The notes under the pieces are model-generated. The model saw only the letters and a list, made by a program, of their open reading frames with translations. It was not told the origin of the DNA and made no database searches. Positions 8,201 through 46,206 of a stretch of 64,000 nucleotides of DNA are shown in pieces. Origin of the DNA: Bacteroidales bacterium (GTDB lineage: Bacteria; Bacteroidota; Bacteroidia; Bacteroidales; UBA932); contig JAFSBV010000001.1 in assembly GCA_017437125.1 (NCBI GenBank), positions 243,894 to 307,893 of the forward strand, read 5' to 3'. The translations under genes and the position numbers were made by a program. Each line of letters starts with the position of its first letter. The stretch's first letter is position 1.

Positions 8201-8289
8201 TTATTTTTGTATAATATTGAATATAAGTATATTAGTGCGAGACTTAGCGTATTTTTGGCACAAAGATTTCAAAGATAGCCGACTTCTGC

Positions 8290-8297
8290 TAATTTTG
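8290..8297 (+). promoter_or_regulatory. -7 promoter element(s) before xylB
   Basis: TAATTTTG fits TAnnTTTG and lies 29 bases before the xylB start. Two other matches in the same 157-base gap (TATTTTTG at 8202-8209 and at 8250-8257) mean that the start site cannot be fixed by eye. Confidence 0.5.
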
Positions 8298-8326
8298 CAT
8301 ATGTAAAACCAATAATGAAATAACAC

Positions 8327-14161: not shown

Positions 14162-14170
14162 GAGACCGAT

Positions 14171-15451
14171 ATGAAGAAGTATATTATATTGCTTGCCGCA
14201 TTGCTGTGTGGCATACAGGCATCTGCACAGCCTGTATTCGAGAAGTATTTCGAAGACAAGAGCCTCAGGATCGACTATGTCCAGAGCGGCAATTCGCAGA
14301 CTCAGACTGCGGTGATATATGAACTCCGTGAGGAACCAGTTTACGGAGGACCTAAGAAGAATCTGATAGATGACCTCGGCCGTGGAGGTTATATCTTGAA
14401 GGTATATGACAAGAAGAGCGGAGAACTCATATATTCAAAGGGCTACTGCACTCTTTTCGAGGAATGGCTTACTACGGAAGAGGCCAAGAGAGAGACTCAG
14501 GCATGGCTCAATTCCATTTCGATTCCTTATCCTAAGGACAATATCATCGTGGAGTTCAATGCCCGCGACAGAAAGACCATGGAGTTCAGCACCATGCTCA
14601 GACAGGAGATCGATCCGGAGAGCATATTCATCGACAGACGCAAGCTTTTCGAGAATCCTGTTGTGAAGCTTCTTGACAATGGAGGCTCGACAGAAAAAGT
14701 CGATATGGTATTCCTTGCAGAAGGATATACAGCAGAGGAGCAGGACAAGTTCGTGGAGGATGCCAGGAAATTCATGGATGCGATGCTCGCTACAGCTCCT
14801 TTCGACAGCCGTCGTGACGATTTCAACGTGTGGGCAGTAGGAACAATTTCCCAGGAATCCGGCACAAGTTCATGCGGAACGGGAGTATATAAGAACACTG
14901 CTCTCGGAACAGGTTATTATACATTCGGAACCGACAGATATCTTACTACTCCTGACATCAAGGACATCAGGGACGCCGTCTGGAATGTACCATGCGATGC
15001 CATATTCCTTGTCATCAATGCCGAGACATTCGGAGGTGGCGGAATGTATAACGTATATGCATGCGGAACAGCTGACAATGAGCAGACATACGGAGTGTTC
15101 ATGCATGAGTTCGGCCATAGCTTTGCCGGTCTTGCTGACGAATATTTCGGCAAGCCTGTAGCCTATGACGACACATTCTACAACCTCGAAAAAGAGCCAT
15201 GGGAGCCAAATATCACTACTCTTGTGGAGTTCGAAAAGAAATGGAAGGACCTTCTTCCTGAAGGAACTCCGATCCCGACCCCGCTCAATGATGAGACGAA
15301 GGACAAGATCGGAGTATTCGAAGGTGGCGGATATGTTGACAAGGGCATATACCGCCCTGTTGACCATTGCAAGATGCGCGACTATGTTGACTACTGTCCG
15401 GCCTGCAGCCGCGCCATCCTACAGGTCATCGATCATCTTTCTGACAAATAA
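14171..15451 (+). CDS. M64 (IgA peptidase) family exported protein, tandem paralogue
   Basis: 426 residues, colinear over its whole length with the preceding gene and with long identical stretches near the C terminus (for example IPTPLNDETKDKIGVFEGGG), so this is a tandem duplication. The signal peptide ends about ASAQ with no lipobox cysteine, so unlike its partner it should be released into the periplasm or outside. The zinc site is HEFGH with His312 and His316. It is co-transcribed with the first copy. Only one base separates its stop from the end of the convergent GH31 gene, and I see no strong terminator between them. Confidence 0.9.
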   Translation: MKKYIILLAALLCGIQASAQPVFEKYFEDKSLRIDYVQSGNSQTQTAVIYELREEPVYGGPKKNLIDDLGRGGYILKVYDKKSGELIYSKGYCTLFEEWLTTEEAKRETQAWLNSISIPYPKDNIIVEFNARDRKTMEFSTMLRQEIDPESIFIDRRKLFENPVVKLLDNGGSTEKVDMVFLAEGYTAEEQDKFVEDARKFMDAMLATAPFDSRRDDFNVWAVGTISQESGTSSCGTGVYKNTALGTGYYTFGTDRYLTTPDIKDIRDAVWNVPCDAIFLVINAETFGGGGMYNVYACGTADNEQTYGVFMHEFGHSFAGLADEYFGKPVAYDDTFYNLEKEPWEPNITTLVEFEKKWKDLLPEGTPIPTPLNDETKDKIGVFEGGGYVDKGIYRPVDHCKMRDYVDYCPACSRAILQVIDHLSDK

Positions 15452-30657: not shown

Positions 30658-30753
30658 TGAATTATTTCTGAAAATCCGTGTGCGGGCACGGTAAAAAGGC
30701 TGTATTAACAGATTTTTTTTATCATATTTGTATGTCTTAATAATAATGAGAAT

Positions 30754-31815
30754 ATGAAAGCCGAGATCAGCAAAGTCACTATCAACGATGTCGCGAAGGC
30801 GGCTGGGGTTTCCAAGGGAACTGTTGACCGGGTGATCCACAACAGGGGAGAGGTGTCCCGTAAAAGCCGCGAAAAGGTCCTTCGCGTCATAGATGAACTT
30901 GGCTTCAAGCCTAACCTCTATGCGTCTCTTCTGGCTTCCCAGAAGGAAAGGACCATCTGCTGCATCATACCGGAATGCCGCCCCGGGGAATTCTGGTCCA
31001 TGACCCGGAAAGGTATCCAGGAAGCGGCGGCGATAGTTTCGAGATATGGGGTGAAGGTGGTATGTGCAGGGTTTGACCAATATAGTGTGGATTCGTTCAG
31101 AATGGCTTGTGATTCAGTGGTTTCCATGAATCCTTCGGGCGTGCTTGTCGCTCCGATGTTCCGGGACGAGACTATGAGGCTTGCTGATTCTCTCTCATCT
31201 TCCGGCATACCTTTCATGTTTCTGGATTCCAAGATCGATGATGCCGGCTATCTTGCTTATTTCGGAATGCCTATGTATGAAAGCGGATATCTCTGCGCTG
31301 ACATACTCACCGGAGGCCGCAATATTCCGCATAAGGTATATGTGGTACGCATATCACGCGACAAGACAGGCCTGTCGGATCCGACTGCTGCGCGAAGGGC
31401 TGGCTTCATGGACTTCATGGCAAGACATTATCCTGAAACACTGATAGAGAATGTGTTCATAGACCCTAAGGATGCAGCATCCATTTACGAAAGGCTGGAT
31501 GCTACCGTCGGCAGGGAAAAGGACGGACGCTTCGTCGTGATGTTCAATTCCAGGATACATCTTGTGGCGGATTATCTGTCTGTCAAGGGATTTCATGACT
31601 GCCGTGTCGTTGGTTTCGATGCTCTTGAACGTAATGTCGCCGCCCTTAAGGATGGTACTGTATATGCCCTGATAGCTCAGCATACCGATCGTCAGGCTCT
31701 TGATGCCGTCAATGCCATGACCGATCATCTGCTTCTCGGTACTCCTGTCGCAAAGAGGGATAATTTCATACAGATGGATATCCTGAACCGTTACAATTGC
31801 GACTATTATCTATAG
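30754..31815 (+). CDS. LacI-family transcriptional regulator
   Basis: 353 residues. The helix-turn-helix (about 8-30) reads VTINDVAKAAGVSKGTVDRVIHNRGEVS, with the hinge helix at about 50-60. The C-terminal domain is a periplasmic-binding-protein fold (about 65-350) that should bind a small sugar or sugar phosphate. It has variants typical of Bacteroidota members (DRVIHNRG in place of SRVLN). Candidate targets are the divergent ExuT-like gene and the phosphodiester operon downstream, where a perfect CG-centred palindrome lies at 31842-31857. The latter is the stronger sign. Confidence 0.93.
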   Translation: MKAEISKVTINDVAKAAGVSKGTVDRVIHNRGEVSRKSREKVLRVIDELGFKPNLYASLLASQKERTICCIIPECRPGEFWSMTRKGIQEAAAIVSRYGVKVVCAGFDQYSVDSFRMACDSVVSMNPSGVLVAPMFRDETMRLADSLSSSGIPFMFLDSKIDDAGYLAYFGMPMYESGYLCADILTGGRNIPHKVYVVRISRDKTGLSDPTAARRAGFMDFMARHYPETLIENVFIDPKDAASIYERLDATVGREKDGRFVVMFNSRIHLVADYLSVKGFHDCRVVGFDALERNVAALKDGTVYALIAQHTDRQALDAVNAMTDHLLLGTPVAKRDNFIQMDILNRYNCDYYL

Positions 31816-31841
31816 TCGTTCCGCTTCTTCCGGATAATGCG

Positions 31842-31857
31842 GATTTTACGTAAAATC
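31842..31857. promoter_or_regulatory. LacI-type operator candidate
   Basis: GATTTTACGTAAAATC is a perfect 16-bp palindrome centred on CG, the hallmark of LacI-family operators. It lies 26 bases after the regulator stop and 33 bases before the -7 element of the GlpT operon. A second palindrome, CATTAA-T-TTAATG (31857-31869), abuts it. Confidence 0.65.
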
Positions 31858-31890
31858 ATTAATTTAATGCACTGTTTCAAAGAATTTGAT

Positions 31891-31898
31891 TAAATTTG
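31891..31898 (+). promoter_or_regulatory. -7 promoter element of the phosphodiester operon
   Basis: TAAATTTG matches TAnnTTTG, 36 bases before the chosen GlpT start. It overlaps an in-frame TTG at 31896, which is therefore unlikely to be the start codon. Confidence 0.6.
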
Positions 31899-31934
31899 CA
31901 GGTTATTACCAACATTAGATATACCGCAAATAAT

Positions 31935-33314
31935 ATGGCAAAATTCTTTGATCCGCCTCAGGCGAAGCCTCTTCTTCCGAAGGAGAAGATCGACAGCGTT
32001 TACAAGTCCATGAGATTCAAGGTCTTCATGGGTTCGTTCATCGGCTATGCCGCATATTATCTGGTCCGCAAGAACCTTTCACTGGCTTCAGCCGACATGA
32101 TCGCGGAAGGCCTCATCGACAAGCAGGGAGTCGGTATCGCGGCTTCTGCAGTTTCGATCGCCTATGCTTTCAGCAAGTTCGGCATGGGTATGCTTTCAGA
32201 CCGTTCGGATGCGAGGAAGTTCCTCACGATAGGTCTTGTCATCGCATCTCTCGTGATGATGTCCGTAGGCTTCCTTCCTTTCTCGGCTACAAATATGGCC
32301 CTGAATGTGGCGATGCTGTTCGTCATCATGCTTTTCGTGGGTGTCCTTTCCGGAATGGGATGGCCTCCTTGCGGACGAATGATGGCATATTGGTTCTCGA
32401 ACAATGAACGAAGCTTCAAGATGTCTCTCTGGAACACTTCGCATACCATCGGTGCTGGTACTCTCGGAATCATCGCCATATTCGGTGTCGGTCTTTTTGC
32501 CGATATGGGCATTGCACAGCCTTGGAGGGCCAATTTCATTGCTCCTTCTGTAGTCGCCCTTGTTCTGGCTGCTTTCTGCTGGTGGGCATTGAGAGATACT
32601 CCTGAGTCATGCGGTCTTCCATCTGTCGCCGACTGGAGAAATGACCATTCAGGCGTGAAGACCAAGGAAAAGGTAGGCGAGAAGGTGCCTTTCAAGACCC
32701 AGCTCGTTGACTATGTCCTCAAGAACAAGTGGATCTGGTTCATCGCTCTGGCGAATGCATTCGTATATATGGTAAGATACGGTGTCGGTGATTGGGCTCC
32801 TACATATCTTCAGGAAACAGGCATTATGACAGGTGCAGAGAGCAAGCTCGCATTCTCTATCCACAATTATGTCGGAGCTGTCGGAACAATCGTTTGCGGA
32901 TGGATCTCCGCCAAGTTCTTCAAGGGCAAATGTGCTCCTCCTAACATCATCTTCATGAGTCTCGTGCTTGTCGGCTGTCTCATCTACTGGCAGGTGCCTG
33001 CACTCGCGGTCGCTACGGGAATCTCAGCAAAGGTATGGGTATATGTGGCCCTCATCCTCATCGGATTCTGCATTTACGGCCCTGTGGCCCTCGTCAGCAT
33101 CCAGGCTCTCAATCTCGTTCCTAAGAATGCAGCCGGTACTGCAGCCGGCTTCGTAGGTCTTTCAGGTTACCTCATCGGTGACTCGCTCCTTTCAAAGATC
33201 ATCGTCGGCGGTATCGCAGACAAGAGCTGGGACATGGCAAACTTCACTATGGTGATCGGTGCTGCACTCGGTATCCTTCTTTGCGTAATGACTCTGAAGT
33301 CGGAAAAGAACTGA
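31935..33314 (+). CDS. GlpT/UhpT-family organophosphate:phosphate antiporter
   Basis: 459 residues from the ATG at 31935 (an upstream TTG lies in the promoter). It has 12 membrane segments. The two phosphate-binding arginines known from E. coli GlpT are matched by Arg45 in YYLVRKNLSLA and Arg281 in VYMVRYGVGDWAPTYL. The central loop carries the family signature RDTPESCGLP. Such carriers exchange cytosolic phosphate for glycerol 3-phosphate or hexose phosphate; sequence alone does not decide between them. As first gene of an operon with a GDPD enzyme, uptake of glycerol 3-phosphate is the most economical reading. The next gene starts 8 bases later. Confidence 0.9.
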   Translation: MAKFFDPPQAKPLLPKEKIDSVYKSMRFKVFMGSFIGYAAYYLVRKNLSLASADMIAEGLIDKQGVGIAASAVSIAYAFSKFGMGMLSDRSDARKFLTIGLVIASLVMMSVGFLPFSATNMALNVAMLFVIMLFVGVLSGMGWPPCGRMMAYWFSNNERSFKMSLWNTSHTIGAGTLGIIAIFGVGLFADMGIAQPWRANFIAPSVVALVLAAFCWWALRDTPESCGLPSVADWRNDHSGVKTKEKVGEKVPFKTQLVDYVLKNKWIWFIALANAFVYMVRYGVGDWAPTYLQETGIMTGAESKLAFSIHNYVGAVGTIVCGWISAKFFKGKCAPPNIIFMSLVLVGCLIYWQVPALAVATGISAKVWVYVALILIGFCIYGPVALVSIQALNLVPKNAAGTAAGFVGLSGYLIGDSLLSKIIVGGIADKSWDMANFTMVIGAALGILLCVMTLKSEKN

Positions 33315-33322
33315 TTGCTAAT

Positions 33323-35242
33323 ATGAAGAGAATCATTTCATTGCTGGCTGCAGCCGCAGCAATAGCTCTGGCAGTTTCGTGTGGCAAGGAGCCGGAACCT
33401 GATGTGGATGTTCCGGAAAAGCTTGATCTCATGATCAGTCTTCCGGCAGTAATTGACGGAGCTGCCGGTGATGTCATTTCAGTGAAGTATTATTCAGGAA
33501 AAGGCCCGAAATCAGGCGATTCTGTTGTCCTGAAGAAAGGCTCGTCTGAAATATCATGTGAAATCGTTTCCATCGACAGCGAATCATTCAGCTTCAAGAT
33601 AGCATCGGAGGTGGAAACTGGAAAATATACATTCTGCATACGCAGAGGTGACCTGACTCAGGCTGTCAGGGATGTCCAGTTCAACATCGAGAAAAGAAGC
33701 GAGATACCTGAAAAGGAGGGCTTCAATGTATATGGACTGATCTCATGTGATGGTGCCGGTGTTCCTGGAGTTGTCGTTTCTGACGGAGTGGAGGTGACCG
33801 TAACCGACAATGACGGAGTTTATTACCTTAAGTCCAAGGAGTATAACAGGGTGGTGTTCATGTCGGTTCCAAGCGGTTATGAAGCTGAAACGTCAGGAGT
33901 ACTTCCGAAATTCCACAAGGTACTTGACGGAAATGCAGCTACGACAGAGAGGGCGGACTGGAATCTTGTCAAGGTCGAGAATCAGAACCATATCATGTAT
34001 GTCCTTGGTGACATGCATCTTGCAAATAGGACTAATGACCTCAATCAGTTCGCCAACTTCACTGCCGATCTTGGCGCTCTTGTCTCATCGAACAAGATGA
34101 AGAAGCAGTATGCTCTGACATTGGGAGACATGACATGGGATCTTTACTGGTATGACAACGCGTATGACCTCAATTCATATGTCGAGACGATGAATTCAAG
34201 TATTACTGGACTTCAGATATTCCATACCATAGGAAATCATGACCATGACATGCTTTCTGCCGGAGACTTCAATACGGTGTCCGCATATAAGAAGACCGTA
34301 GCTCCTACCTATTACTCCTTTAATATTGGCGATGTGCATTACGTCGTTCTTGACAATATCCTCTGTACGAATGACGGAACCGGAAACAGGACATATGATT
34401 CAAGCCTTACGATAGATCAGATCGACTGGCTGAGGAAGGATCTTTCATATGTTGATAAGTCCAAGGCTCTTGTGATAACCATGCATGCTCAGATGTATGA
34501 CGAGAAGGGAAAGGCTTCGATGGCTTTCGCTTCAGAGCTGGAGGAACTTTGCAACGGATATGAGACCCATGTGATCAGCGCACATACCCATGTCGTATGG
34601 AACAACGACAAGACAGCGGAAAACGGAATATATCACCATAACAGCGGTGCAATCTGCGCTACATGGTGGTGGACCGGTTATTATACTTCCGGACTCGGAC
34701 TTTGCAAGGACGGCTCTCCAGCCGGATATTATGTATATGAAATGACAGGATCCGATGTCAAATGGAGGTTCAAGCCTACAGACAAGGATTTCAGCCATAT
34801 GTTCCGTACGTATGACAGGAATGAGATCGTTCTTTCAGCGGCTGGGTTTGCACCGAATGCCGATTCCGGACATGCATCTTCATTCGAAAAGACAGCGTCC
34901 CATTGGGTATCGGGCAGCACTGACAATTATGTGTATATCAATGTGTTTGATTATGATCCTTCGTGGAAGATAGAGGTGACGGAGAATGGAAAGAGCCTTC
35001 CTTACGAGGTGGTAAAGGTCAAGGATCCTCTGCATCTTGTGGCGTATGAGGCCAAGAGATATAATGAAAACAAGACTCCGACCTCAAGCTTCAATGCCTA
35101 TACCGTGAATTCGCATATATTCAGGGTTCAGGCTTCTTCTGCCACATCCACCCTTGAAATAAAGGTGACCGACAGGTTCGGAAACTCTGCTTCGGAGAGC
35201 ATGAAGCGCCCTAAGGCTTTCTCTCTTCAGGCATACAGATAA
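33323..35242 (+). CDS. calcineurin-like metallophosphoesterase lipoprotein
   Basis: 639 residues from the ATG at 33323 (an earlier in-frame start overlaps the transporter). The lipobox ends at Cys20 (LAVSC). An N-terminal Ig-like region (about 30-125) and a small MetallophosN-like beta domain (about 130-215) precede the dinuclear metal domain with GDMH (229-232), GDMTWD, GNHDH (304-308), MHAQM and AHTH (420-423). A C-terminal domain shares the pattern VFDYDPSWKIE with the fusion protein encoded later in the operon, so the two are paralogues. It should hydrolyse a phosphomonoester or phosphodiester at the cell envelope; the substrate is inferred from context. Confidence 0.88.
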   Translation: MKRIISLLAAAAAIALAVSCGKEPEPDVDVPEKLDLMISLPAVIDGAAGDVISVKYYSGKGPKSGDSVVLKKGSSEISCEIVSIDSESFSFKIASEVETGKYTFCIRRGDLTQAVRDVQFNIEKRSEIPEKEGFNVYGLISCDGAGVPGVVVSDGVEVTVTDNDGVYYLKSKEYNRVVFMSVPSGYEAETSGVLPKFHKVLDGNAATTERADWNLVKVENQNHIMYVLGDMHLANRTNDLNQFANFTADLGALVSSNKMKKQYALTLGDMTWDLYWYDNAYDLNSYVETMNSSITGLQIFHTIGNHDHDMLSAGDFNTVSAYKKTVAPTYYSFNIGDVHYVVLDNILCTNDGTGNRTYDSSLTIDQIDWLRKDLSYVDKSKALVITMHAQMYDEKGKASMAFASELEELCNGYETHVISAHTHVVWNNDKTAENGIYHHNSGAICATWWWTGYYTSGLGLCKDGSPAGYYVYEMTGSDVKWRFKPTDKDFSHMFRTYDRNEIVLSAAGFAPNADSGHASSFEKTASHWVSGSTDNYVYINVFDYDPSWKIEVTENGKSLPYEVVKVKDPLHLVAYEAKRYNENKTPTSSFNAYTVNSHIFRVQASSATSTLEIKVTDRFGNSASESMKRPKAFSLQAYR

Positions 35243-35283
35243 GATCTTACAACTATTAACAATACTAACTAATCATTAAGTTT

Positions 35284-38200
35284 ATGAGATTACTTAAATC
35301 TTTCGCTGCTTCTCTGGCTTTTCTGCTTGCAGGCTTCAGTGCCTTTGCGCAGAACAGGGAACTGTCCGGTGTCGTACTGGACGCGACTGACTTCCCGCTC
35401 ATCGGCGTGGCTGTCATCGTTGACGGAACGACAAACGGAGTCATGACAGCAGATGACGGAACGTTCACATTGACCGTACCGGCTACTGAAGTCATTCTTA
35501 ATGTGTCGTCACTTGGTTACGAGACCAAGCTTGTTACAGTGCCTGCGACACAGGACAAGGTTACAATCTATCTCGCAGAAGACAACATGATGATCGAAGA
35601 GACCGTCGTTGTCGGCTACGGTACTCAGAAGAAGGTCAACCTCACCGGTGCTGTGGGAGTGGTTGACAGCAAGCAGCTCGAGGACAGAACATCGCATAAC
35701 CTCAGTGCAATGCTTCAGGGTTCTGTTCCAGGCCTTAATATTTCGACATCAAGCGGTAATCCCGGCAGCTCCGGAAGCCTCAATATCCGTGGTATCGGAT
35801 CTATCGGTTCAGGTGCCGACACTACTCCTCTCGTGCTCATCGACGGTGTAGAGGGTGAGATCGACCGTGTCAATCCTGCTGACGTCGAGTCTATCTCAGT
35901 TATCAAGGATGCATCTGCAGCAGCCGTTTATGGTGCCCGTGGTGCTTTCGGTGTGATCCTCATCACTACGAAGAAGGGTTCTGACAATGAAGGAAAGGCT
36001 ACAGTACGTTACAGCGGCCGTTTCGGTTGGGAAGAGCCTACTACATCGACTGATTACGAGACAACAGGTTACTGGTCTGCATTCATCCACAACATGTTCT
36101 GGAAGGCTGATAACGCCAACTCGAAGTATATCCAATATACTGACTATGACATGCAGCAGCTCCTTCTCCGTATCAACGACAAGACAGAGCATCCTGACCG
36201 TCCATGGACAGTGATCGAGAACAGAAACGGAAAGGATACCTATATGTATTATGCGAATACAGACTGGTGGCATGAGCTTTTCGTTGACCGTCATCCTGTA
36301 CAGCAGCATCAGATATCCCTCAGCGGCGGATCAAAGGCTGTGAAGTTCTATCTCTCGGGAGCTTTCGACCAGCAGACCGGTATCGTGAAGAAGAATCCTG
36401 ACGTGTTCACAAAGTACAATCTCCGTTCGAAGATCGACTTCAAGATCAACAAGTATGCGAAGATGACCAACAATACGTCATTCTACAGCTCTACATATGA
36501 TTATCCGGGCGTAGGAAACGTCGAGAATGCAATCGCATATGCCGCTAACCACGGTCTTGCATGTTTCCCTCTCCAGAACCCTGACGGATCATGGATCTAT
36601 TCGACTCCGCACCTCAACTACAAGGTTGCCAACGGACGTCATATCGTTTATGGAAACGGTTACAACACAAACCTTGACAGGAAAACCGATTTCTCTAATA
36701 CAACCGAGCTCACAATCACTCCTGTAAAGCAGTTCAACATCGTAGGTAACTTCACTTACAGATTCCACCAGAACCGCAACACAAACAGATCTACCAATAT
36801 GGTATATTCTGATTATCCAGGCCAGTTCGGTGCATATACTACAGGTGCCGGTGACAACAATCTCTATGAAACTGTACAGACCATGAATTACCTTGCTGCA
36901 AACGTGTTTGCAACATATGAGGATTCGTTCAAGGAGAACCACAACCTCAAGGTAATGGCCGGTTTCAATTATGAGTCATATTACAGAAAGGCCATCGATG
37001 CTACAGGTTACGACCTCATCACCGACGAGCTTTCAGACTTCAACCTCATCACTACCACAAGACAGCCTGTCCTCGGCGGTGGTCAGACAATCTATGCTCT
37101 TGCCGGATTCTTCGGCCGTATCAACTACGACTACAAGGGCAGATATCTTCTCGAGGTTTCAGGACGATACGACGGTACTTCACGCTTTGCCGAGGGACAT
37201 CGTTTCGGATTCTTCCCTTCAGCTTCTGCCGGATGGCGTATCTCTGAGGAGAACTGGTTCGCTCCAGCAAAGGACGTTGTCAACAACCTCAAGCTCCGTG
37301 CATCATTCGGTAGCCTCGGTAACCAGAAGGTGACCAACAATGCATGGATGAGAAAGATCACGTTCGACAACTTCGCCGCTTATTCGTTTGACGGTTCTGC
37401 AATGGGACGATATGCTACCATTTCTGCTCCTAATGCATCAGACCTTACTTGGGAGACATCGACACAGTACAATGCAGGTATTGATGCAGGAATGTTCAAT
37501 GACAAGCTCATGTTCACTGTCGAGGGCTTCATCCGTGATACCAAGGGCATGCTCCAGCAGGGTGTCGCTCTTCCAGGCGTATATGGCGCTAACTCTCCTC
37601 TCATGAACAGTGCAGACCTCCGTACATCAGGTTACGAGCTTTCGTTCAGCTGGAGAGATCAGCTTGATCTCGGCGGCAGACCGTTCGGCTACAGCATTTC
37701 TGCAAACCTTTCCGACAACAGGACCATCATCACCAAGTATGACAACCCTGAGAGGACATTCGCAAAGGATTACTATGAGGGTATGGAGCTTGGCGAGATC
37801 TGGGGATTCGTTACTGACGGTCTCTTCCAGAGCGATGCAGAAGCTCAGGCATATGCACAGCAGGTTGATCTCAGCTACATCACAAAGCGTCTGACAGGTG
37901 GATGGCTTGCCGGTGACCTCAAGTATGTCGATATCGACGGTGACGGTAAGATCGGCCTCGGTTCAGATACAGTTGACAAACCTGGTGACAGAAAGATTCT
38001 CGGAAACACCAATGCTACTCTTCAGTATGGCTTCACTCTCGCTTTCGACTACCTCGGATTCGATGTTTCGGCATTCTTCCAGGGAACAGGTAACCATTAC
38101 TGGTATCCTAATGGCGAGTCAATGGCATTCTGGGGACCTTATTCACGTCCTTACTGCTCGTTCATAGCAGATGACTTCCTTGATCATGTATGGGCTGAGG

Positions 38201-38556
38201 ATAACACAGACGCATATTTCCCACGTCCACGTGCTTATTCTGCATACACTTCAGGTGCATACCTTGCCAATGTGAATGACAGATATCTCCAGAATATCAG
38301 ATATCTCAGATTCAAGAACCTTACAGTGGGTTATACCGTACCTCAGAACGCGACAAGAAAGATCGGTATCGAGAAGGTGCGCGTTTACTTCTCTGGTGAG
38401 AACCTTGCTTACTGGTCTCCATTCAAGCAGCACAGCAAGTACATCGATCCTGAGGCTGCATTTGACAGAAAGAGCGGCGGAAGTCTTACACGTTACAACA
38501 ACGCATTCTATCCATGGCAGAAGACCATGATGTTCGGTGTTGACATCACATTCTAG
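35284..38556 (+). CDS. SusC/RagA-family TonB-linked outer membrane transporter
   Basis: 1090 residues. Signal peptide (cut near AFAQ), CarboxypepD-regulatory-like domain (about 27-105), the SusC signature EETVVVGYGTQKKVNLTGAV (split here as a TonB box-like region near 105-125), plug domain (about 125-235; NIRGIGSIG, DGVEGEIDRVNPADVESISVIKDASAAAVYGARG) and a barrel to the C-terminal Phe. It imports oligomers bound by its SusD lid. It follows the metallophosphoesterase by 41 bases and is coupled to susD by 23 bases. The neighbouring phosphoesterases rather than glycosidases suggest a phosphorylated cargo. Confidence 0.96.
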   Translation: MRLLKSFAASLAFLLAGFSAFAQNRELSGVVLDATDFPLIGVAVIVDGTTNGVMTADDGTFTLTVPATEVILNVSSLGYETKLVTVPATQDKVTIYLAEDNMMIEETVVVGYGTQKKVNLTGAVGVVDSKQLEDRTSHNLSAMLQGSVPGLNISTSSGNPGSSGSLNIRGIGSIGSGADTTPLVLIDGVEGEIDRVNPADVESISVIKDASAAAVYGARGAFGVILITTKKGSDNEGKATVRYSGRFGWEEPTTSTDYETTGYWSAFIHNMFWKADNANSKYIQYTDYDMQQLLLRINDKTEHPDRPWTVIENRNGKDTYMYYANTDWWHELFVDRHPVQQHQISLSGGSKAVKFYLSGAFDQQTGIVKKNPDVFTKYNLRSKIDFKINKYAKMTNNTSFYSSTYDYPGVGNVENAIAYAANHGLACFPLQNPDGSWIYSTPHLNYKVANGRHIVYGNGYNTNLDRKTDFSNTTELTITPVKQFNIVGNFTYRFHQNRNTNRSTNMVYSDYPGQFGAYTTGAGDNNLYETVQTMNYLAANVFATYEDSFKENHNLKVMAGFNYESYYRKAIDATGYDLITDELSDFNLITTTRQPVLGGGQTIYALAGFFGRINYDYKGRYLLEVSGRYDGTSRFAEGHRFGFFPSASAGWRISEENWFAPAKDVVNNLKLRASFGSLGNQKVTNNAWMRKITFDNFAAYSFDGSAMGRYATISAPNASDLTWETSTQYNAGIDAGMFNDKLMFTVEGFIRDTKGMLQQGVALPGVYGANSPLMNSADLRTSGYELSFSWRDQLDLGGRPFGYSISANLSDNRTIITKYDNPERTFAKDYYEGMELGEIWGFVTDGLFQSDAEAQAYAQQVDLSYITKRLTGGWLAGDLKYVDIDGDGKIGLGSDTVDKPGDRKILGNTNATLQYGFTLAFDYLGFDVSAFFQGTGNHYWYPNGESMAFWGPYSRPYCSFIADDFLDHVWAEDNTDAYFPRPRAYSAYTSGAYLANVNDRYLQNIRYLRFKNLTVGYTVPQNATRKIGIEKVRVYFSGENLAYWSPFKQHSKYIDPEAAFDRKSGGSLTRYNNAFYPWQKTMMFGVDITF

Positions 38557-38579
38557 TCAAGTTGAATCATTAAAGAATT

Positions 38580-40391
38580 ATGAAGATGAAAAAATATTTG
38601 ATAATGATAGCTGCTGCAGCTCTCGCCTTCGCTTCTTGTGACATGCTTGACAAGGAGCCGTTGTCAGAGATGTCTCCGGAGTCTTATTTCAAGACTGAGC
38701 AGGATCTCCAGCTTTTCTCAAACACATTCTATAACAACCTTCTTCCTAAGTCGCCTTACGGCTACCAGAGCGACCATTATGTAAAGCAGACTATGTCTGA
38801 CGAGCTTCATGGCGGTTCTTACCGTATCGTTCCTAACTCAGGCAGCGGCTGGTCATGGGGAGACCTCAGGAAGATGAACACTCTCCTCGGATATATCGAC
38901 AATTGCGAGGACGAGAAGGCAGTAACCGAATATACAGCTCTCACAAAGTTCTTCAGGGCTTTCTTCTATTACGAGAAGGTGAAGAGATTCGGTGACGTTC
39001 CATGGATCGACAAGGAACTCGGATCTGCTGACGAGGCTCTCTGGAACCCAAGAGACAACCGTGAGGTAGTCATGCAGCACATGCTCGAGGATATCAACTA
39101 TGCCATCGAGAACCTTCCTGCACCTACCACACAGTTCCGTGTGAACAAATATACCGCACTTGCACTCAAGGCTCAGTTCTGTCTCTTCGAGGGTACTTTC
39201 AGAAAGTATCATGCAGGTGAGTCAACACTCAAGACCCTTCCTGCTGATGCAAAGGACTACAGGTTCTATCTCAAGGAAGCTGCTGATGCCGCAAAGCAGA
39301 TCATGGACAGCGGAAAGTACTCGCTCTATTCGACAGGAAAGCCTGAGCAGGATTACCGCGACATGTTCGTGCTTGAGGACAGTGATTCGAACAAGGAGTT
39401 CATCCTTTCCATCAAGTGTGATTACGGTCTCGCCATCTTCCACAACGGTACTGCATACGGTCTTCTCCCGTCACAGGGACGTATCGGTGCTACAAGGAAG
39501 TTCATCGACAGCTACCTCATGAAGGACGGTTCACGCTTCACAGACAAGGCAGGCTGGGAGTCAATGGAGTTCGCTGCTCAGGTGGCTGACCGTGACCCTC
39601 GTCTCGCACAGTCTTTCCGTACTCCTGGCTATACCAGAATCGACGGAACCGACATCCTTGCACCGGATCTTTCTTCAAGCTGTACTGGATATCAGACAAT
39701 CAAGTGGGTGATGTCATGCAAGGCTAACGGTGGTGACTCTGACCGTGTTGACCGTTCAACAAGCGACCTTCCGGTATATCGTCTCGGCGAAATCCTCCTC
39801 ATCTATGCAGAGGCAAAGGCCGAACTCGGCGAGCTTACCCAGGAGGATCTCAACAACTCGATCAACCTTCTCCGCAAGAGGGTAGGAATGCCGAGCCTTA
39901 CACTTGGTGTGACTGCTGACCCATATCTCACAAATCCATCATACGGATATACCAACCCTAAGCTTCTTGCTGATCCTAACCTCGCAATCATCCTCGAGAT
40001 CCGTCGTGAGAGAGCTATCGAGCTCGCACAGGAGGGCAACAACCGCTGGTATGACATCGTACGCTGGAGAGAGGGCAAGAGCGTTGACCAGCCTTTCTAT
40101 GGCCTTTATTTCCCAGGTCCTGGCGAATATGACATCAATGGTGACGGCAAGCTTGACTACTGCCTCTATGAAGGTGACGTGAAGCCGGATTCAAAGGCGA
40201 CATCTGTCCTCAAGATCGGTTCGGAGATTCTTCTCAGCAACGGAACAAGCGGATATGTAGAGCCTCACAAGGGTGAGACACATACATTCAATGAGAACAG
40301 AGACTACTATTATCCGATCCCAAGCGACGAGCGTTCTCTCAACCCTAACCTTACCCAGAACGATGGTTGGGACGATGGTCTTGATTTCTAA
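38580..40391 (+). CDS. SusD/RagB-family surface lipoprotein
   Basis: 603 residues, lipobox ending at Cys20 (AFASC). The N-terminal SusD-like region (LDKEPLSEMSPESYFKTEQDLQ) and TPR-type helices in the middle, followed by the RagB C-terminal signature ILEIRRERAIELAQEGNNRWYDIVRWREG (about 470-500). It forms the substrate-binding lid on the SusC barrel encoded just upstream. A Dx-rich loop near YDINGDGKLDY (about 520) looks like a calcium site. Confidence 0.96.
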   Translation: MKMKKYLIMIAAAALAFASCDMLDKEPLSEMSPESYFKTEQDLQLFSNTFYNNLLPKSPYGYQSDHYVKQTMSDELHGGSYRIVPNSGSGWSWGDLRKMNTLLGYIDNCEDEKAVTEYTALTKFFRAFFYYEKVKRFGDVPWIDKELGSADEALWNPRDNREVVMQHMLEDINYAIENLPAPTTQFRVNKYTALALKAQFCLFEGTFRKYHAGESTLKTLPADAKDYRFYLKEAADAAKQIMDSGKYSLYSTGKPEQDYRDMFVLEDSDSNKEFILSIKCDYGLAIFHNGTAYGLLPSQGRIGATRKFIDSYLMKDGSRFTDKAGWESMEFAAQVADRDPRLAQSFRTPGYTRIDGTDILAPDLSSSCTGYQTIKWVMSCKANGGDSDRVDRSTSDLPVYRLGEILLIYAEAKAELGELTQEDLNNSINLLRKRVGMPSLTLGVTADPYLTNPSYGYTNPKLLADPNLAIILEIRRERAIELAQEGNNRWYDIVRWREGKSVDQPFYGLYFPGPGEYDINGDGKLDYCLYEGDVKPDSKATSVLKIGSEILLSNGTSGYVEPHKGETHTFNENRDYYYPIPSDERSLNPNLTQNDGWDDGLDF

Positions 40392-40413
40392 CAATTAAAC
40401 TATAGATGAGATT

Positions 40414-42678
40414 ATGAGATTTATTAAGAATCTATATATATCAGCCTTAGCTGCAGTAGCCGGTGTTCTCGCGTTTACCGGCTGCCAGCCTGAGGAATCT
40501 CCGCTTTCAAGAGCTATCATGACCAGTGTTTCAGGTCTTGAGTTCGACGCTCTGAATGCTGAGCCGCAGACCATTACGGTTTATGCGGATGCTGACTGGA
40601 CCGTTGAGGCTCCTGAGTGGGTTACCGTTGACAGGACTTCAGGCAGCCGTACTATGGATGTTACCATTTCCGTAGCAGACAACATGCGTGACGGTGCAAT
40701 GGACAACCCGAAGAAGGATACTGTCATCTTCAGAGGATACAACCTCCTTTCAAATGCATATGTGATTGTAAGCCAGGGTGGTGACAAATACAGGGATGTG
40801 CCTCCTGTAATCATTCCAGAAGTGTACGCCATGAAGGATGAGGAAGTTGTCATCCTTGATCACGTCGCAGTCGTGGCTGTTTCTGCAAACGGCTTCGTCG
40901 TGAATGACGGAAACGAAAGCATATATGTAGCAAGCAAGGAAGACCTTGTAATCGGTGACGGAGTTCATGTAAGAGGTTCAAAGGGAACACTCAATGACAT
41001 TCCTGCGATCACTGTATGCGACCTTGTGGAGAAGAAGGGAGATAATCGTGCTCCTGCATATCCTCTCATCAAGGACATCACTCCTTCTCTCGATGCATAT
41101 GCACCTTCGAAGATGGAATATGTGGAACTTACAGGTTCCCTTGATGGCATGAATGTGACAGTAGAGGGTGCTGTAAGGGTAGGAGCTATTCTCGATCCTG
41201 CAGCTGGATTTGATCTTGCTGCCATTAACGGACACAATGTCACTGTCAGAGGTTTCAGTTTCGGTGCTACAGTTTCTGTCGTAAACATCATCGTGACTGA
41301 AATCGTTGACCTCGGTGTTAACGAAATCATCTACTTCACCGATAACTTCGACTGGTTCGCTGATATCGCTTCTGCCGAGGGAGCAGGTGATGCTGTAGGT
41401 ACAGATGATCCTGGTACAACCGCTCCTAACGTATGGAAGATGGGTTCAAGCGCAGACTTCTTCGCTAAATTCAACGAGATCGGCTACCAGTATCTTTACG
41501 GTACTGTAGGTTCTACAGAGTTCGCGGCAGGTCCGGCTCAGGAACCTAACTCGAAGGTAGGCAAGGACGGTTCGCTTTATATCCAGTCCAACTATCTCAA
41601 GTTCGGTCAGACCAGCTACAATGGAGCTCTCGTTCTTCCTGCACTTTCGGCAATTCAGGGTGCTGCAAACATCCAGATCGAGTTCGACTGGTGCTGGCAG
41701 GTGACAGGTGCATACAAGCCTGACATCATGACTCTCTCAGTCGATGCTACGGCCGGTGCATTCGCTGACAGCGGATCGTCAACAAGCAACGAAATCGAGT
41801 CGGCCCAGTCTCAGGTTGACGGTGAAAGTCATATCGAGTGGCAGCATGTAGTGCTCGTTCTCAACGGAGCAACTCCAGAGACTGTACTTACCATCAGACC
41901 TACAAATGCCGACCCTACAGTACAGAATCCTGCAAGAAAGCAGAACCGCTGGTATCTTGACAACATCAAGATTATCGACGCTGGCGGTGCTCCTGTAACT
42001 CCACCAGCAGGCGGAGCCAAGACCGTTTATTCTGATGATTTCGAATGGATCGCTCCAATGGCAACAACTGAGGGAGCTGGTGACGCTGTAGGTACAGATG
42101 ATCCAGGTACTACTGCTCCTAATGTATGGAAGATGGGCACAAGCGCTGATTTCTTTGCTAAGTTCAACGAGATCGGCTACCAGTATAAGTATTCTACTAT
42201 CGGTTCTACCGAATTTGTAGCAGGTCCTGCACAGGAACCAAAGTCAGATGTCGGCAAGGAAGGTTCACTCTACATCCAGTCCAACTATCTCAAGTTCGGT
42301 CAGACCAGCTACAGCGGTGCTCTTGTACTTCCTGCTCTCTCTGCAATCGAGGGTACGGCAAACGTATGCATCGAGTTTGACTGGTGCTGGCAGGTTACAG
42401 GTGCGTACAAGCCTGACCTCATGACTCTTTCAGTTGATGCAAGCGTAGGCCAGTTCCCTGATTCAGGTGCTCCTACAAGCGTGGCTCTTGAGTCTGCACA
42501 GTCAACTGTCGATGGAGAAAGCCATATCGCCTGGCAGCACGTGTCCATCGTTCTCAACGATGCGACAGCTGAGACAGTCCTCACAATCAGGCCTACAAAC
42601 CCTGATCCGACTGTTCAGAATTCAAGGAAGCAGAACCGCTGGTATCTTGACAATATCAAGATCGTTACTGTAGAGTAA
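40414..42678 (+). CDS. surface lipoprotein: BACON, DUF5689-like and two tandem modules
   Basis: 754 residues, lipobox ending at Cys24 (AFTGC). Order: BACON-type Ig domain (about 35-125; ADADWTVEAPEWVTVDRTSGSRT), an OB-fold-like DUF5689 type region (about 130-300; VYAMKDEEVVILDHVAVVAVSANGFVVND) and two nearly identical modules of about 215 residues (307-522 and 538-754). Each module starts DNFDW or DDFEW and ends NRWYLDNIKI, with a jelly-roll-like pattern. Third gene after susCD, the usual position of a surface substrate-binding protein (SGBP). The modules probably bind the ligand. No catalytic motif is visible. Confidence 0.85.
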   Translation: MRFIKNLYISALAAVAGVLAFTGCQPEESPLSRAIMTSVSGLEFDALNAEPQTITVYADADWTVEAPEWVTVDRTSGSRTMDVTISVADNMRDGAMDNPKKDTVIFRGYNLLSNAYVIVSQGGDKYRDVPPVIIPEVYAMKDEEVVILDHVAVVAVSANGFVVNDGNESIYVASKEDLVIGDGVHVRGSKGTLNDIPAITVCDLVEKKGDNRAPAYPLIKDITPSLDAYAPSKMEYVELTGSLDGMNVTVEGAVRVGAILDPAAGFDLAAINGHNVTVRGFSFGATVSVVNIIVTEIVDLGVNEIIYFTDNFDWFADIASAEGAGDAVGTDDPGTTAPNVWKMGSSADFFAKFNEIGYQYLYGTVGSTEFAAGPAQEPNSKVGKDGSLYIQSNYLKFGQTSYNGALVLPALSAIQGAANIQIEFDWCWQVTGAYKPDIMTLSVDATAGAFADSGSSTSNEIESAQSQVDGESHIEWQHVVLVLNGATPETVLTIRPTNADPTVQNPARKQNRWYLDNIKIIDAGGAPVTPPAGGAKTVYSDDFEWIAPMATTEGAGDAVGTDDPGTTAPNVWKMGTSADFFAKFNEIGYQYKYSTIGSTEFVAGPAQEPKSDVGKEGSLYIQSNYLKFGQTSYSGALVLPALSAIEGTANVCIEFDWCWQVTGAYKPDLMTLSVDASVGQFPDSGAPTSVALESAQSTVDGESHIAWQHVSIVLNDATAETVLTIRPTNPDPTVQNSRKQNRWYLDNIKIVTVE
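41335..42675 (+). repeat. internal tandem duplication of a ~650-base module
   Basis: Bases 41335-41985 and 42028-42675 encode two copies of the same module, with long identical protein runs such as GAGDAVGTDDPGTTAPNVWK and FDWCWQVTGAYKPD. The DNA differs mostly at third codon positions, so the duplication is not brand new. Confidence 0.85.
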
Positions 42679-42699
42679 CAACAGGTTCCTATATATGAA

Positions 42700-42729
42700 A
42701 AAGCCGGTGCAGATCTCTGCATCGGCTTT
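42700..42729 (+). terminator. hairpin between SGBP and hydrolase genes
   Basis: AAAGCCGGTGCAGA (42700-42713) pairs almost perfectly with TCTGCATCGGCTTT (42716-42729). Without a longer T-run it may be an attenuator that lowers expression of the two downstream enzymes, or an mRNA processing or stability element. Confidence 0.6.
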
Positions 42730-42749
42730 AACAGATAAGATATGATCTT

Positions 42750-43964
42750 ATGAAGAAGTTACTTTCATTTTTTGCTGCACTGGCAGTCTCTTTCAGCATT
42801 GCTTCAGCCCAGGAATACCTCCCGAAATGGCAGGAGGGATATATGGATATCCATACAATCGCTACAGGCAGGGGAGACGCGACCTTTGTCGTGATGCCTG
42901 ACGGTACGACCCTCATGATCGATGCCGGAGACAACGGCAAGCTCAAGGATCCCCAGCATCCCGATACCACCAGAAGGGCAGGTGAGTGGCAGGCCATATA
43001 TATGAAGAAGGTCATGGAAGACCTTCCTGACAGGAACAAGGTGGATTATGCGATGATCACCCATTTCCATGACGACCATATGGGAGCTGTCCGTCAGATG
43101 CTTCCCGGAAGCAATGGCTACGGTCTTTCGGGCATTACGCTGGTAGGTGAATTCGTGGATTTCGGTACTTTGATCGACAGGGCATATCCGGATTATGATT
43201 TCCCTTCAAAGAAGAACGTGAACAATGCCAACAAGGGCTTCATGCCTGAGTATCACAAGTTCGTGGAGCATAAGATGGCTCATGGAATGAAGATGGAGAA
43301 ATTCGATGTCGGTGCATTGAACCAGATCAGGATGCTCAACAATCCTAAGAAGTACAGGAAAAATTTCGAGATCCGCAACCTTGCTGCCAACGGCGAAGTC
43401 TGGACCGGAAAGGGCGAGGATGCCGAAAAACAGTACAAGGGAGACCCGAAGCTTTTTGACGAGAATGTGAACTCTTGTGCGATCCGTATAACATACGGCA
43501 ATTTCAAGTATTACAACGGAGGAGATCTCAGCGGTGGAAACTGGGACATATATAAATCGAAGGAAAGGGACATGGAGACCCCTGTAGCCAAGGTGTGCGG
43601 CAAGGTAGATGTCATAAAGGCAAATCATCATGGCTATTACGACACCTGCAACGGCTTCTTCATGAATACTCTTTCACCTGATGTTGTCATCATCGATGCG
43701 CGAAGCAACAATCATCCTGTACCTTCTACTATGGCCAGAATGACTGATCCGCTCGTATGGACAGAGCAGGGAGAATTCTATATTACCGTTGACAAGGCGC
43801 GCGAAAAGCTCAGCGAAGAGCTCTGGAGCCATTTCAAGCCTTGGGGCCATATCGTCGTGAGGGTATATGATGGCGGTAAGGAGTATCAGGTGTTCGTCCT
43901 CGACGCAGATACTACCGATTATCCGATAATATACAAGTCTGATATCAAGACAGCAGGAAAATAA
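42750..43964 (+). CDS. exported metallo-beta-lactamase-fold hydrolase
   Basis: 404 residues with a signal peptide (cut near IASAQ). The MBL core begins IHTIATGRGDATFVVMPDGTTLMIDAG and has the metal motif THFHDDHMG (His105, His107, Asp109, His110), a late NGGDLSGGNW strand and ANHHGYYDT, the arrangement of the ComEC/Rec2-like MBL branch. That branch and its relatives cut phosphodiesters; a pneumococcal choline-binding phosphorylcholine esterase also has this fold. A phosphodiesterase or phosphocholine/phosphoethanolamine esterase acting in the periplasm fits the operon. The exact reaction is unknown. The fusion gene follows after 10 bases. Confidence 0.82.
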   Translation: MKKLLSFFAALAVSFSIASAQEYLPKWQEGYMDIHTIATGRGDATFVVMPDGTTLMIDAGDNGKLKDPQHPDTTRRAGEWQAIYMKKVMEDLPDRNKVDYAMITHFHDDHMGAVRQMLPGSNGYGLSGITLVGEFVDFGTLIDRAYPDYDFPSKKNVNNANKGFMPEYHKFVEHKMAHGMKMEKFDVGALNQIRMLNNPKKYRKNFEIRNLAANGEVWTGKGEDAEKQYKGDPKLFDENVNSCAIRITYGNFKYYNGGDLSGGNWDIYKSKERDMETPVAKVCGKVDVIKANHHGYYDTCNGFFMNTLSPDVVIIDARSNNHPVPSTMARMTDPLVWTEQGEFYITVDKAREKLSEELWSHFKPWGHIVVRVYDGGKEYQVFVLDADTTDYPIIYKSDIKTAGK

Positions 43965-43974
43965 ACTATAAGAT

Positions 43975-46206
43975 ATGAAGAAGATATTTGCCATAGCATT
44001 GGCGTTCATGATGTTCGGCGGCATCGCCGAAGCCAGGAAGGTGTCCGGCAGCGTGGTCTCCGGTGAGGAAAAGCTCGCCGGTGTCATCGTTACTGACGGA
44101 AAGAATTTCACAACTACAAAGAAGAACGGCAAGTTCTCTTTCGAGATCAAGGATGATGCGGAATTCGTTTACATTGTGACTCCGTCAGGCTATGTTGCTG
44201 ACTGGAGCACAGGTGTGCCGGCTTTCTATCAGGAGGCTGCAGGTCGTGACAGGTTCGTTTTCGAACTTCAGAAGACAGATGCATCCGGTGACTACTCGAT
44301 TGTGGCCATTGCCGATCCACAGACACGTGACGAGAAGCAGTTCGCCAAGTTCGCAGACGAGCCGATGGCGGATCTCTGCGAGACAGTCACGACTCTGACA
44401 GGGGCTTCAGTGGGCCTTGCTCTTGGTGATATCTGCTGGGATTCTCTTGAGCTTCTGGAAAGCTACAGGAAGGAGATCGTCCGCACTGGAATCCCTTTCT
44501 ATCCTGTGGTCGGCAATCATGACCATGAGCTCGAAGCCCAGGGTGATATACAGACTACAGCAACATACAGGAAGATCATGGGCCCCGAGAATTATGCCTT
44601 CTGTCTTGGCAAGGACGTGGTGATCGTTCTCGATAACATCATATATGACACTCAGAAGAAATATCAGGAAGGATATGCATCTCATGTGATCTCGTGGGTG
44701 AAAGGCCTTGAGGCTCTTCTTCCTGAAGGCGCATCCCTTTATATCGCTCAGCATTCTCCTGTGAAATACTGGGAGAACGGACGCAAGATCATCGGTGCAT
44801 CCGATCTTATCGACATAGTCCGTGGACGCAAGGTAACCTTCGTTTCAGGCCACACTCATGTGAACAACAACCTTGAGTACGAGAAGAACATAACTGAGCA
44901 TAATGTGGCTGCAATATGCGGTTCATGGTGGGATACAGACCATTGTACTGACGGTACTCCAAGAGGATACAAGGTATTTACCATGAAGGACGGCAGACTC
45001 AGCTGGTACTACAAGTCTGTAGGACATGACAAGGATCATCAGGTGGAGCTTTACAAACCAGGACAGACTCTTCAGCATCCGAACAGCGTCGTGGTGAACG
45101 TCTGGGACTGGGATCAGGCATGGAAGGTGGAATGGTTCGAAGATGGAAAGCCGATGGGCTCTCTCAAGCCTGTGAAGGAATATTCTCCTCTTTATATCCA
45201 TGAAATCAATGAGGCTTTCGCCGGCAGGAAGATTCCGGGATACAAGCAGCCGAACATCAATTATCATTATTTCGCAGCGACTCCGAGCCAGTATGCGAAG
45301 AATGTGACCATATCCGTGGAAAGCCGTTTCGGAAAAAGATGGGTCTATAATGTGGATATGTCGGAATATGTTGACGTGCAGGCCCATAGAGGCGGAGCCG
45401 GACTCATGCCGGAGAATACCATCGAGGCCATGAAACATGCTCTCGACATGGGTGTCAACACTCTTGAACTGGATCTTCAGATCAGCAAGGACGGTCTGGT
45501 GGTCGTATCCCATGATCCGTATTTCCACCATCGTTATGCCATCCGTCCGGACGGAAGCCATGTTCAGAAGGATGATCCTAAGGAGTATATCTATACCATG
45601 CCTTACAGTGAGGTTGCGAAGTATGATGTAGGAAGCCGTCCGAGCGAGGTATGGCCGGAGAAGGCTTGTGTCAAGACCGTGAAGCCTCTTGCGGATGATC
45701 TGATAGATTTCGTTGAGAACTATACGAAGGAAATGGGCTATTCTCCTGTAAGATACAATATCGAAATCAAGTCTAAGGACGCTGCAGGCGAGGGACAGAA
45801 CTGGCCGACTTATGACAGATTCGTTTCCGAGTGCTGCAAATTCCTTCATTCAAAGCATCTGGGTGACAGGCTCGTGGTGCAGAGCTTCGACGTGAGGGCA
45901 CTGAATTACATGCATGAGAAATACCCTGAATTCATCCTTTCATACCTTGTCGATGCCAAGGCTCCGGATTTCGATACATATATGGCCAAGCTGAAGTTCA
46001 CTCCTCAGTGGCTCAGTCCTCATCATACCATCACTGATGAAGACCTTGTGAAGAAATGCCATGAAAAGGGTATGAAGATAGTTCCTTGGACTGTTGACGC
46101 ACCGGAAGATATCAGGCGCATCCTCGATCTCAAGGTCGATGCCATCATTTCAAATTATCCTGACAGGGTTCTGGAACAGACCAGAGGATTCGTATATGCA
46201 AGGTAA
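43975..46206 (+). CDS. metallophosphoesterase-GDPD fusion protein
   Basis: 743 residues with a signal peptide (cut near IAEA). Part 1: MetallophosN-like beta domain (about 20-100), calcineurin-like domain with ADPQ (113-116; Gln where DxH is usual), GDICWD, GNHDH (180-184) and GHTH (292-295), then a MetallophosC-like domain (about 360-465, NVWDWDQAWKVEW). Part 2 (about 468-743): glycerophosphodiester phosphodiesterase with AHRG (His471), ELDLQISKDG (Glu498, Asp500), SHD (His513) and NIEIKS, all GlpQ-type active-site residues. GDPD enzymes release glycerol 3-phosphate from glycerophosphodiesters; the first half could trim the phosphate or a second ester. It is the last gene of the operon. Confidence 0.9.
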   Translation: MKKIFAIALAFMMFGGIAEARKVSGSVVSGEEKLAGVIVTDGKNFTTTKKNGKFSFEIKDDAEFVYIVTPSGYVADWSTGVPAFYQEAAGRDRFVFELQKTDASGDYSIVAIADPQTRDEKQFAKFADEPMADLCETVTTLTGASVGLALGDICWDSLELLESYRKEIVRTGIPFYPVVGNHDHELEAQGDIQTTATYRKIMGPENYAFCLGKDVVIVLDNIIYDTQKKYQEGYASHVISWVKGLEALLPEGASLYIAQHSPVKYWENGRKIIGASDLIDIVRGRKVTFVSGHTHVNNNLEYEKNITEHNVAAICGSWWDTDHCTDGTPRGYKVFTMKDGRLSWYYKSVGHDKDHQVELYKPGQTLQHPNSVVVNVWDWDQAWKVEWFEDGKPMGSLKPVKEYSPLYIHEINEAFAGRKIPGYKQPNINYHYFAATPSQYAKNVTISVESRFGKRWVYNVDMSEYVDVQAHRGGAGLMPENTIEAMKHALDMGVNTLELDLQISKDGLVVVSHDPYFHHRYAIRPDGSHVQKDDPKEYIYTMPYSEVAKYDVGSRPSEVWPEKACVKTVKPLADDLIDFVENYTKEMGYSPVRYNIEIKSKDAAGEGQNWPTYDRFVSECCKFLHSKHLGDRLVVQSFDVRALNYMHEKYPEFILSYLVDAKAPDFDTYMAKLKFTPQWLSPHHTITDEDLVKKCHEKGMKIVPWTVDAPEDIRRILDLKVDAIISNYPDRVLEQTRGFVYAR

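Follow-up and report, generated by a model that had tools for sequence, protein, structure and literature searches.

A SusCD locus with phosphodiesterases and a GlpT-type carrier in Bacteroidales, a predicted outer-membrane arm of the glp system

Polysaccharide utilization loci (PULs) are usually interpreted as sugar-foraging systems. Here we analyze a SusCD locus rich in phosphodiesterase genes in a 64,000-nucleotide stretch of a Bacteroidales genome (G000:C43:243894-307893; 'the window' below means this whole stretch), the genome amounting to 2.8 Mb in 99 contigs. The labels G###, L### and C## denote genomes, loci and contigs, respectively. The locus occupies positions 31935-46206 on the plus strand and consists of seven genes, for a GlpT-type carrier, a metallophosphoesterase (MPE) lipoprotein, SusC, SusD, a BACON-like lipoprotein, a hydrolase of the metallo-beta-lactamase (MBL) fold, and a fusion of MPE and glycerophosphodiester phosphodiesterase (GDPD) domains.

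The closest described system is the phosphate utilization system (PUS) of Flavobacterium, in which SusCD likewise stands with phosphodiesterases/phosphatases in place of carbohydrate-active enzymes (CAZymes), and uptake is followed by periplasmic hydrolysis (PMC8115612). A GDPD-type domain beside PusCD has also been published, in PUSII, as a pf13653 (GDPD_2) domain on a PhoA (PMC8115612). The anatomical hallmark of PusCD, co-localization of SusCD with phosphodiesterases/phosphatases, holds in the window locus. Unlike PUS, however, the window locus has a GlpT and a GDPD fused to MPE, and its relatives add genes of glp catabolism; the terms GlpT, GDPD and glycerol have no occurrence in the main text of the PUS paper (PMC8115612). 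PUS is defined there by induction on phosphate depletion (PMC8115612).

The glpTQ and glpABC-GDPD-glpT operons resemble the locus in that GDPD and GlpT make and import sn-glycerol 3-phosphate. The GDPDs of the glpABC-GDPD-glpT operons form a clade nested among the fusion GDPDs, but these operons are without the MPE fusion, and no SusC/SusD was found within ~8 kb on either side of 14 such GDPD genes, contig ends permitting. In Bacillus subtilis, the exolytic GDPD GlpQ frees sn-glycerol 3-phosphate from wall teichoic acid, with the endo-acting phosphodiesterase PhoD implicated alongside; this is described as turnover of the cell's own Gram-positive wall (PMC7086022), whereas the window locus would serve Gram-negative foraging via SusCD. 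In the openly licensed PubMed Central literature searched (titles and abstract openings), no teichoic-acid or glycerophosphodiester PUL was described; nor did searches of this literature turn up SusCD coupled to glpT/glpABC or an MPE-GDPD fusion. SusCD with phosphodiesterases thus has a precedent in Flavobacterium PUS, whereas the searches yielded no precedent for the glp-coupled form.

The genes of the locus are the following:

31935-33314, plus strand: GlpT-type organophosphate carrier, inner membrane; major facilitator superfamily (MFS), best family TIGR00712 glpT
33323-35242, plus strand: MPE lipoprotein; MetallophosN-Metallophos-MetallophosC
35284-38556, plus strand: SusC-type TonB-dependent transporter; TIGR04056, 884.3 bits (cut-off 368.25)
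38580-40391, plus strand: SusD-type lipoprotein; PF07980, 157.1 bits
40414-42678, plus strand: BACON-like lipoprotein, putative surface binding protein; weak BACON and choice-of-anchor-J matches, both under cut-off
42750-43964, plus strand: MBL-fold hydrolase of ComEC/Pce type; Lactamase_B, type I signal sequence by eye
43975-46206, plus strand: MPE-GDPD fusion; MetallophosN-Metallophos-MetallophosC-GDPD, PF03009 133.5 bits, type I signal sequence by eye

With the ATG starts judged likeliest, the gap between an upstream LacI-family gene and GlpT is 119 bases, and the following gaps are 8, 41, 23, 22, 71, and 10 bases. The coordinates bear out the gene set, positions and 8-71-base gaps given in the original prediction, a range that covers the genes after LacI; its segment, 30754-46206, placed the genes correctly and left the LacI gene at 30754 unnamed. 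As in SusCD-type PULs, an adjacent susC-susD pair is present together with lipoproteins. A Pfam scan found no glycan-degrading family of glycoside hydrolases (GHs), polysaccharide lyases or carbohydrate esterases among the window locus proteins; the earlier statement that the locus has no GH is therefore right for the window locus and wrong for some relatives, in which GH31 and/or GH89 occur (7 of 69 loci). The BACON label is clear in the proteins of three scanned relatives but not in that of L091, and for the window protein it is weak, at 19.4 bits against a PF13004 cut-off of 25. The genome as a whole holds 17 SusD matches, one GlpT of the window type, two other GlpT homologues at 31-33% identity, and two GDPD matches. 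The co-occurrence of these genes goes beyond chance, and the same arrangement recurs in relatives.

The window GlpT scored 445.8 bits against TIGR00712, ahead of PgtP, UhpC and UhpT, and aligned to 1pw4 it retains the residues that we take to be R45, K46, K80, H165 and R269. In the fusion, the GDPD domain spans residues 471-730, and positions H471, R472, E498, D500, H513, E597 and K599, which are presumably catalytic, were invariant in 32 of 32 aligned sequences; as judged by alignment, the GDPD and MPE catalytic positions of the fusion are intact. The lipoprotein cysteine of the MPE lipoprotein was invariant in 26 of 26 sequences. With this lipoprotein on the one hand and, on the other, the type I-like signals seen by eye in the MBL protein and the fusion, cutting is predicted at the outer membrane as well as in the periplasm. 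For the MBL protein, the phosphorylcholine esterase Pce was the top PDB match by sequence profile, and ComEC came first, followed by Pce, by fold. We rejected the idea that it is an orthologue of Pce as unproven, because the ComEC fold is closer and the genus has many MBL relatives. Identity to the teichoic acid phosphorylcholine esterase Pce/CbpE is 16-18%, and Pfam gives Lactamase_B alone for the window protein.

To what extent the arrangement is conserved was examined in 151 genomes of the genus (at most seven candidates scored per genome), 28 of which carried a full-length fusion; at order level (E<=1e-60, at most two candidates scored per genome) it was present in 2 of 393 genomes, G000 and G041. 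A census of 98 fusion copies from 107 listed loci gave 69 distinct loci at 97% identity, and in 51 of these the flanks added up to 12 kb or more. SusCD, looked for within 20 kb, accompanied the fusion at 42 of the 69 distinct loci and at 39 of the 51 well-flanked ones. The latter also contained MPE (28), MBL (12), GH31/GH89 (4), and other glp genes or DeoR (6); these counts are lower bounds because many loci span 10 kb upstream only and GlpT sits 10-16 kb upstream. Where 14 kb or more of upstream sequence was available (a limit chosen after the table was seen), GlpT was present in 9 of 13 loci. Across all 69 loci, other glp genes or DeoR occurred in nine, and GH31 (plus GH89 in one locus) adjoined the fusion in seven. 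Loss of gene order among relatives had been named beforehand as the finding that would count against the proposal; the order proved to be conserved.

Individual genomes illustrate this. G222 has GlpT-MPE-SusC-SusD-BACON-x-MBL-fusion, flanked by DnaJ and an ABC-F gene as in the window, and G237 the same order plus an additional MPE. Other versions are LacI-GlpT-MPE-SusC-SusD-BACON-GH31-fusion (G303), MPE-SusC-SusD-BACON-GH89-GH31-fusion (G107), GH31-GlpT-fusion (G041), and DeoR-GlpT-fusion (G313). Among 20 order-level stretches, L258 (G503) combined a GDPD with SusC and SusD. Irregular fusion copies were also seen: L193 has separate MPE and GDPD frames, L050 a shortened frame of 602 aa, and in L112 a 1070-aa MPE-BACON open reading frame (ORF) adjoins the fusion.

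GlpT and GlpABC act on sn-glycerol 3-phosphate, and in several relatives the locus is joined to genes of this pathway. In G328, a single strand reads glpA-glpB-glpC-glpT-MPE-SusC-SusD-BACON-(one ORF)-MBL-fusion, with GlpA, GlpB and GlpC exceeding the NCBIfam equivalog cut-offs. G235 holds glpK-glpF, the fusion, MPE-SusC-SusD, glpT and glpCBA in 20 kb; G203 has glpC-glpT, SusC-MPE and the fusion; and G056 has a DeoR gene with glpD-glpT-MPE-SusC-SusD-fusion, while glpK-glpF lies at the locus in L174 and L189. The linkage extends to genomes without the full-length fusion (G330, glpABC-glpT-MPE-SusC), to arrangements without GDPD (G089 and G010, glpD-glpT-MPE-SusC-SusD-MPE), and to one of the 20 order-level stretches, L254 (G627), with glpABC-glpT and MPE-SusD-SusC in 19.75 kb. 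In a tree, the fusion GDPD grouped with the GDPD of glpABC-GDPD-glpT strings. Together, the glp linkage in relatives and this grouping suggest that the released product is very probably sn-glycerol 3-phosphate. Separately, in L218 (G230), glpABC-glpT is followed by a 573-aa ORF that by eye resembles a 5'-nucleotidase lipoprotein.

Genome-wide distribution was tested across the 151 genus genomes with shared ancestry ignored. The window-type GlpT (at least 62% identity) occurred in 47 genomes, including 24 of the 28 with the fusion (p=3e-11); a second GlpT type (41-47%) occurred in 49, and no genome had both. A non-fusion GDPD matching that of the fusion at 53-62% was found in 30 genomes, none of them a fusion genome, and we withdrew the strong mutual exclusion that this seemed to indicate (0/28 among 30, p=0.0013), as it pooled two kinds of GDPD. 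The tree split the 30 into 14 with GDPDs of glp strings, nested among the fusions, and 16 forming a separate clade; 13 of the 14 carry the second GlpT type (p=1e-6). The partial-fusion genomes G252, G262 and G321 were left out of both exclusion sets. Several members of the separate clade lie in longer proteins (537-925 aa, often ~575 aa), and in 5 of the 16 (G240, G336, G231, G215, G129) a SusC-like ORF is near the GDPD, so the placement of GDPD next to SusC arose more than once. L047, L297, L299, L301 and L302 are examples, with a ROK kinase as well in L047, L301 and L302.

From gene set, catalytic positions, order and glp linkage, we consider it probable (roughly 0.72) that this locus, in PUL form, gives the glycerol-3-phosphate (glp) system its uptake arm at the outer membrane. 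The earlier description of it as a glpTQ analog in PUL form that recovers glycerol 3-phosphate gains support from the conserved order, the glp linkage in relatives, the GDPD grouping and the intact catalytic positions. In the proposed mechanism, the BACON-like lipoprotein, SusD and the MPE lipoprotein would bind and pre-cut a glycerophosphodiester-containing oligomer on the outer membrane, and SusC would bring the pieces into the periplasm. There, the MBL enzyme and the two-headed MPE-GDPD would cleave the phosphodiesters to sn-glycerol 3-phosphate, which GlpT would move across the inner membrane; GlpABC and GlpK, homologues of which lie elsewhere in the window genome, would route it to central metabolism. 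If this is true, a conserved glp-wired SusCD locus would mean that gut Bacteroidales forage glycerophosphate compounds, Gram-positive cell walls could become a cross-fed nutrient, and the combination of SusCD, MPE-GDPD and GlpT would be a predictive signature of a substrate class overlooked by CAZyme-based PUL annotation.

Several observations weigh against the uptake-arm reading. The window GlpT falls under the TIGR00712 cut-off of 632.55, although the L046 GlpT, which belongs to a glpABC-GDPD string, scores below it too. SusCD was not seen in 12 of the 51 well-flanked loci, and GlpT was seen in just 11 of them (a lower bound). The window copy is without an adjacent glp catabolic gene, the genome's GlpA and GlpK being on C33 and C74, respectively. 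The expected exclusion between the fusion and the glp-type GDPD (0 shared genomes; 28 and 14) was not significant (p=0.07 for the 14 genomes), so that it is only a hint; the disregard of shared ancestry in the tests counts on the same side. Finally, the MBL is not specific to the locus, because it is in only 12 of 69 fusion loci and has relatives in 60 of 151 genomes, some with 8-11 matches. Expansion of the MBL family to this extent was seen in, e.g., G225, G297, G221, G244, G304 and G245, and since some copies are near SusCD/MPE, more phosphoester-directed SusCD loci probably exist.

As to the substrate, Gram-positive polyglycerolphosphate wall teichoic acid or a phosphoglycerol-decorated glycan is the most attractive option, although we put it forward tentatively. 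The need for SusCD suggests something larger than small diesters. The GlpQ-like GDPD, the Pce/ComEC-type MBL and the GH31/GH89 genes found at 7 of the 69 loci make glycosylated wall teichoic acid an appealing candidate. An endo-enzyme, an exo-GDPD and glycosidases would all be useful to an organism that feeds on wall teichoic acid. In B. subtilis, wall teichoic acid is a polymer of sn-glycerol 3-phosphate, broken down by GlpQ starting at its free end, and the release of glycerol phosphate is reported to be 22 times greater from walls without glucosylation than from wild-type walls (PMC7086022). In a fuller and more speculative form, the locus could be a teichoic-acid utilization locus by which herbivore- and bird-gut Bacteroidales might eat the glycosylated wall teichoic acid of Gram-positive neighbors via SusCD, with MPE-GDPD as a two-headed endo/exo teichoicase; in some lineages GH31/GH89 would strip off the side chains, and carbon and phosphorus would be gained in the form of sn-glycerol 3-phosphate. 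We do not take GH31 as proof of a glycosylated polymer: its nearest PDB relative is an alpha-xylosidase and close relatives are widespread, with only those of G107 and G303 adjoining the fusion among the hits listed, so that GH31 at fusion loci is a lead only. Lipoteichoic acid is an unlikely substrate if the enzyme is stereospecific like GlpQ, given that in B. subtilis it is an sn-glycerol 1-phosphate polymer of opposite stereochemistry, the intact form of which GlpQ does not cut (PMC7086022).

The next option is that the same machinery serves a small substrate, namely deacylated phospholipid head groups (glycerophosphocholine, -ethanolamine, -inositol). Small glycerophosphodiesters suit the enzymes equally well: such diesters are targets of GDPD and GpdQ-like folds, yielding sn-glycerol 3-phosphate, and the top profile match of the MBL to Pce also fits. 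For PusCD1, the PUS authors themselves suggested that the substrates are either nucleic acids or the head groups of lipids (PMC8115612). On the other hand, molecules of this size normally use porins without SusCD, Pfam found no lipase in the eight locus proteins and ten more scanned, and head groups leave the GH31/GH89 of some loci unexplained. We regard this substrate as somewhat unlikely.

It is also conceivable, although we think it improbable, that the locus scavenges phosphate in the manner of Flavobacterium PUS, stripping it from any organic phosphodiester, with glycerol 3-phosphate being incidental. PUS pairs SusCD with periplasmic enzymes induced on phosphate depletion, among them a pf00149 protein in PUSI and, in PUSII, PhoA1, the bearer of the added pf13653 domain (PMC8115612). 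The MPE lipoproteins, too, match purple acid phosphatases in PDB by sequence. However, the linkage in relatives is to the carbon-side genes glpABC, glpD, glpK and glpF and to DeoR, and via GlpT carbon and phosphate stay joined.

A PUL for a phosphorylated glycan, with sugar as the chief nutrient and phosphodiesterases that take off a decoration, would account for the seven loci with GH31 and/or GH89 beside the fusion, and elsewhere in the order related MPEs accompany SusCD, in one case also with GH89. Nevertheless, GH31/GH89, the two glycosidase families screened for, were seen neither in the window locus nor in most of the other 69 loci; the close relatives of the GH31 are usually located elsewhere, and GlpT and glpABC indicate glycerol phosphate, which makes a sugar diet a poor candidate. 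Scavenging of nucleic acids or nucleotides is very improbable, as no nuclease family was above cut-off in the locus proteins and neither GlpT nor GDPD fits it.

The MPE clusters from elsewhere in the order (L259, L260, L263, L264, L269) contain related MPEs, with GH89 in L259, and proteins that begin like what we take to be DUF5009 membrane acetyltransferases; such clusters may target another phosphodiester glycan.

Upstream of and within the locus, the following features were noted:

30675-30691, no strand: imperfect operator-like palindrome TCCGTG..CACGG, upstream of LacI, by eye
30754-31815, plus strand: LacI-family regulator; LacI and Peripla_BP_4 domains
31842-31857, no strand: perfect 16-base palindrome GATTTTACGTAAAATC in the LacI-GlpT gap
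42700-42729, plus strand: hairpin, possible attenuator, in the BACON-MBL gap; -22.3 kcal/mol, z -5.7

The element at 30675-30691 was not reported by the palindrome scan, but by eye a comparable palindrome lies upstream of LacI in L098, L222 and L217 (four loci including the window). Because the palindrome is upstream of LacI itself, beside kdgK/eda or an MFS gene as divergent neighbors in relatives, LacI may serve those neighbors and not control the SusCD locus. LacI is thus doubtful as the locus regulator, and GlpT has a promoter-like site of its own: TAnnTTTG, which we take to be the Bacteroidetes promoter motif, was present before GlpT in 5 of 6 upstream regions compared (by eye, chance expectation not computed). 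A scan for sigma-70 promoters and terminators performed no better than on shuffled sequence. The stable hairpin in the 71-base BACON-MBL gap, with only three U downstream, means that a single transcript is not certain, and it may lower expression of the MBL and fusion genes.

Elsewhere in the window, an ordinary glycan cluster lies upstream at 58-9799 (GH31, GH2, GH95, an NrtR/AraR-type regulator, and an FGGY kinase), followed by two tandem genes for M64 (IgA peptidase-type) peptidases at 12878-15451 and a further GH31 gene at 15453-18002. A near-identical fusion (99%) was found in a Bacteroidales metagenome-assembled genome from water-deer cecum, and three relatives are Candidatus Cryptobacteroides.

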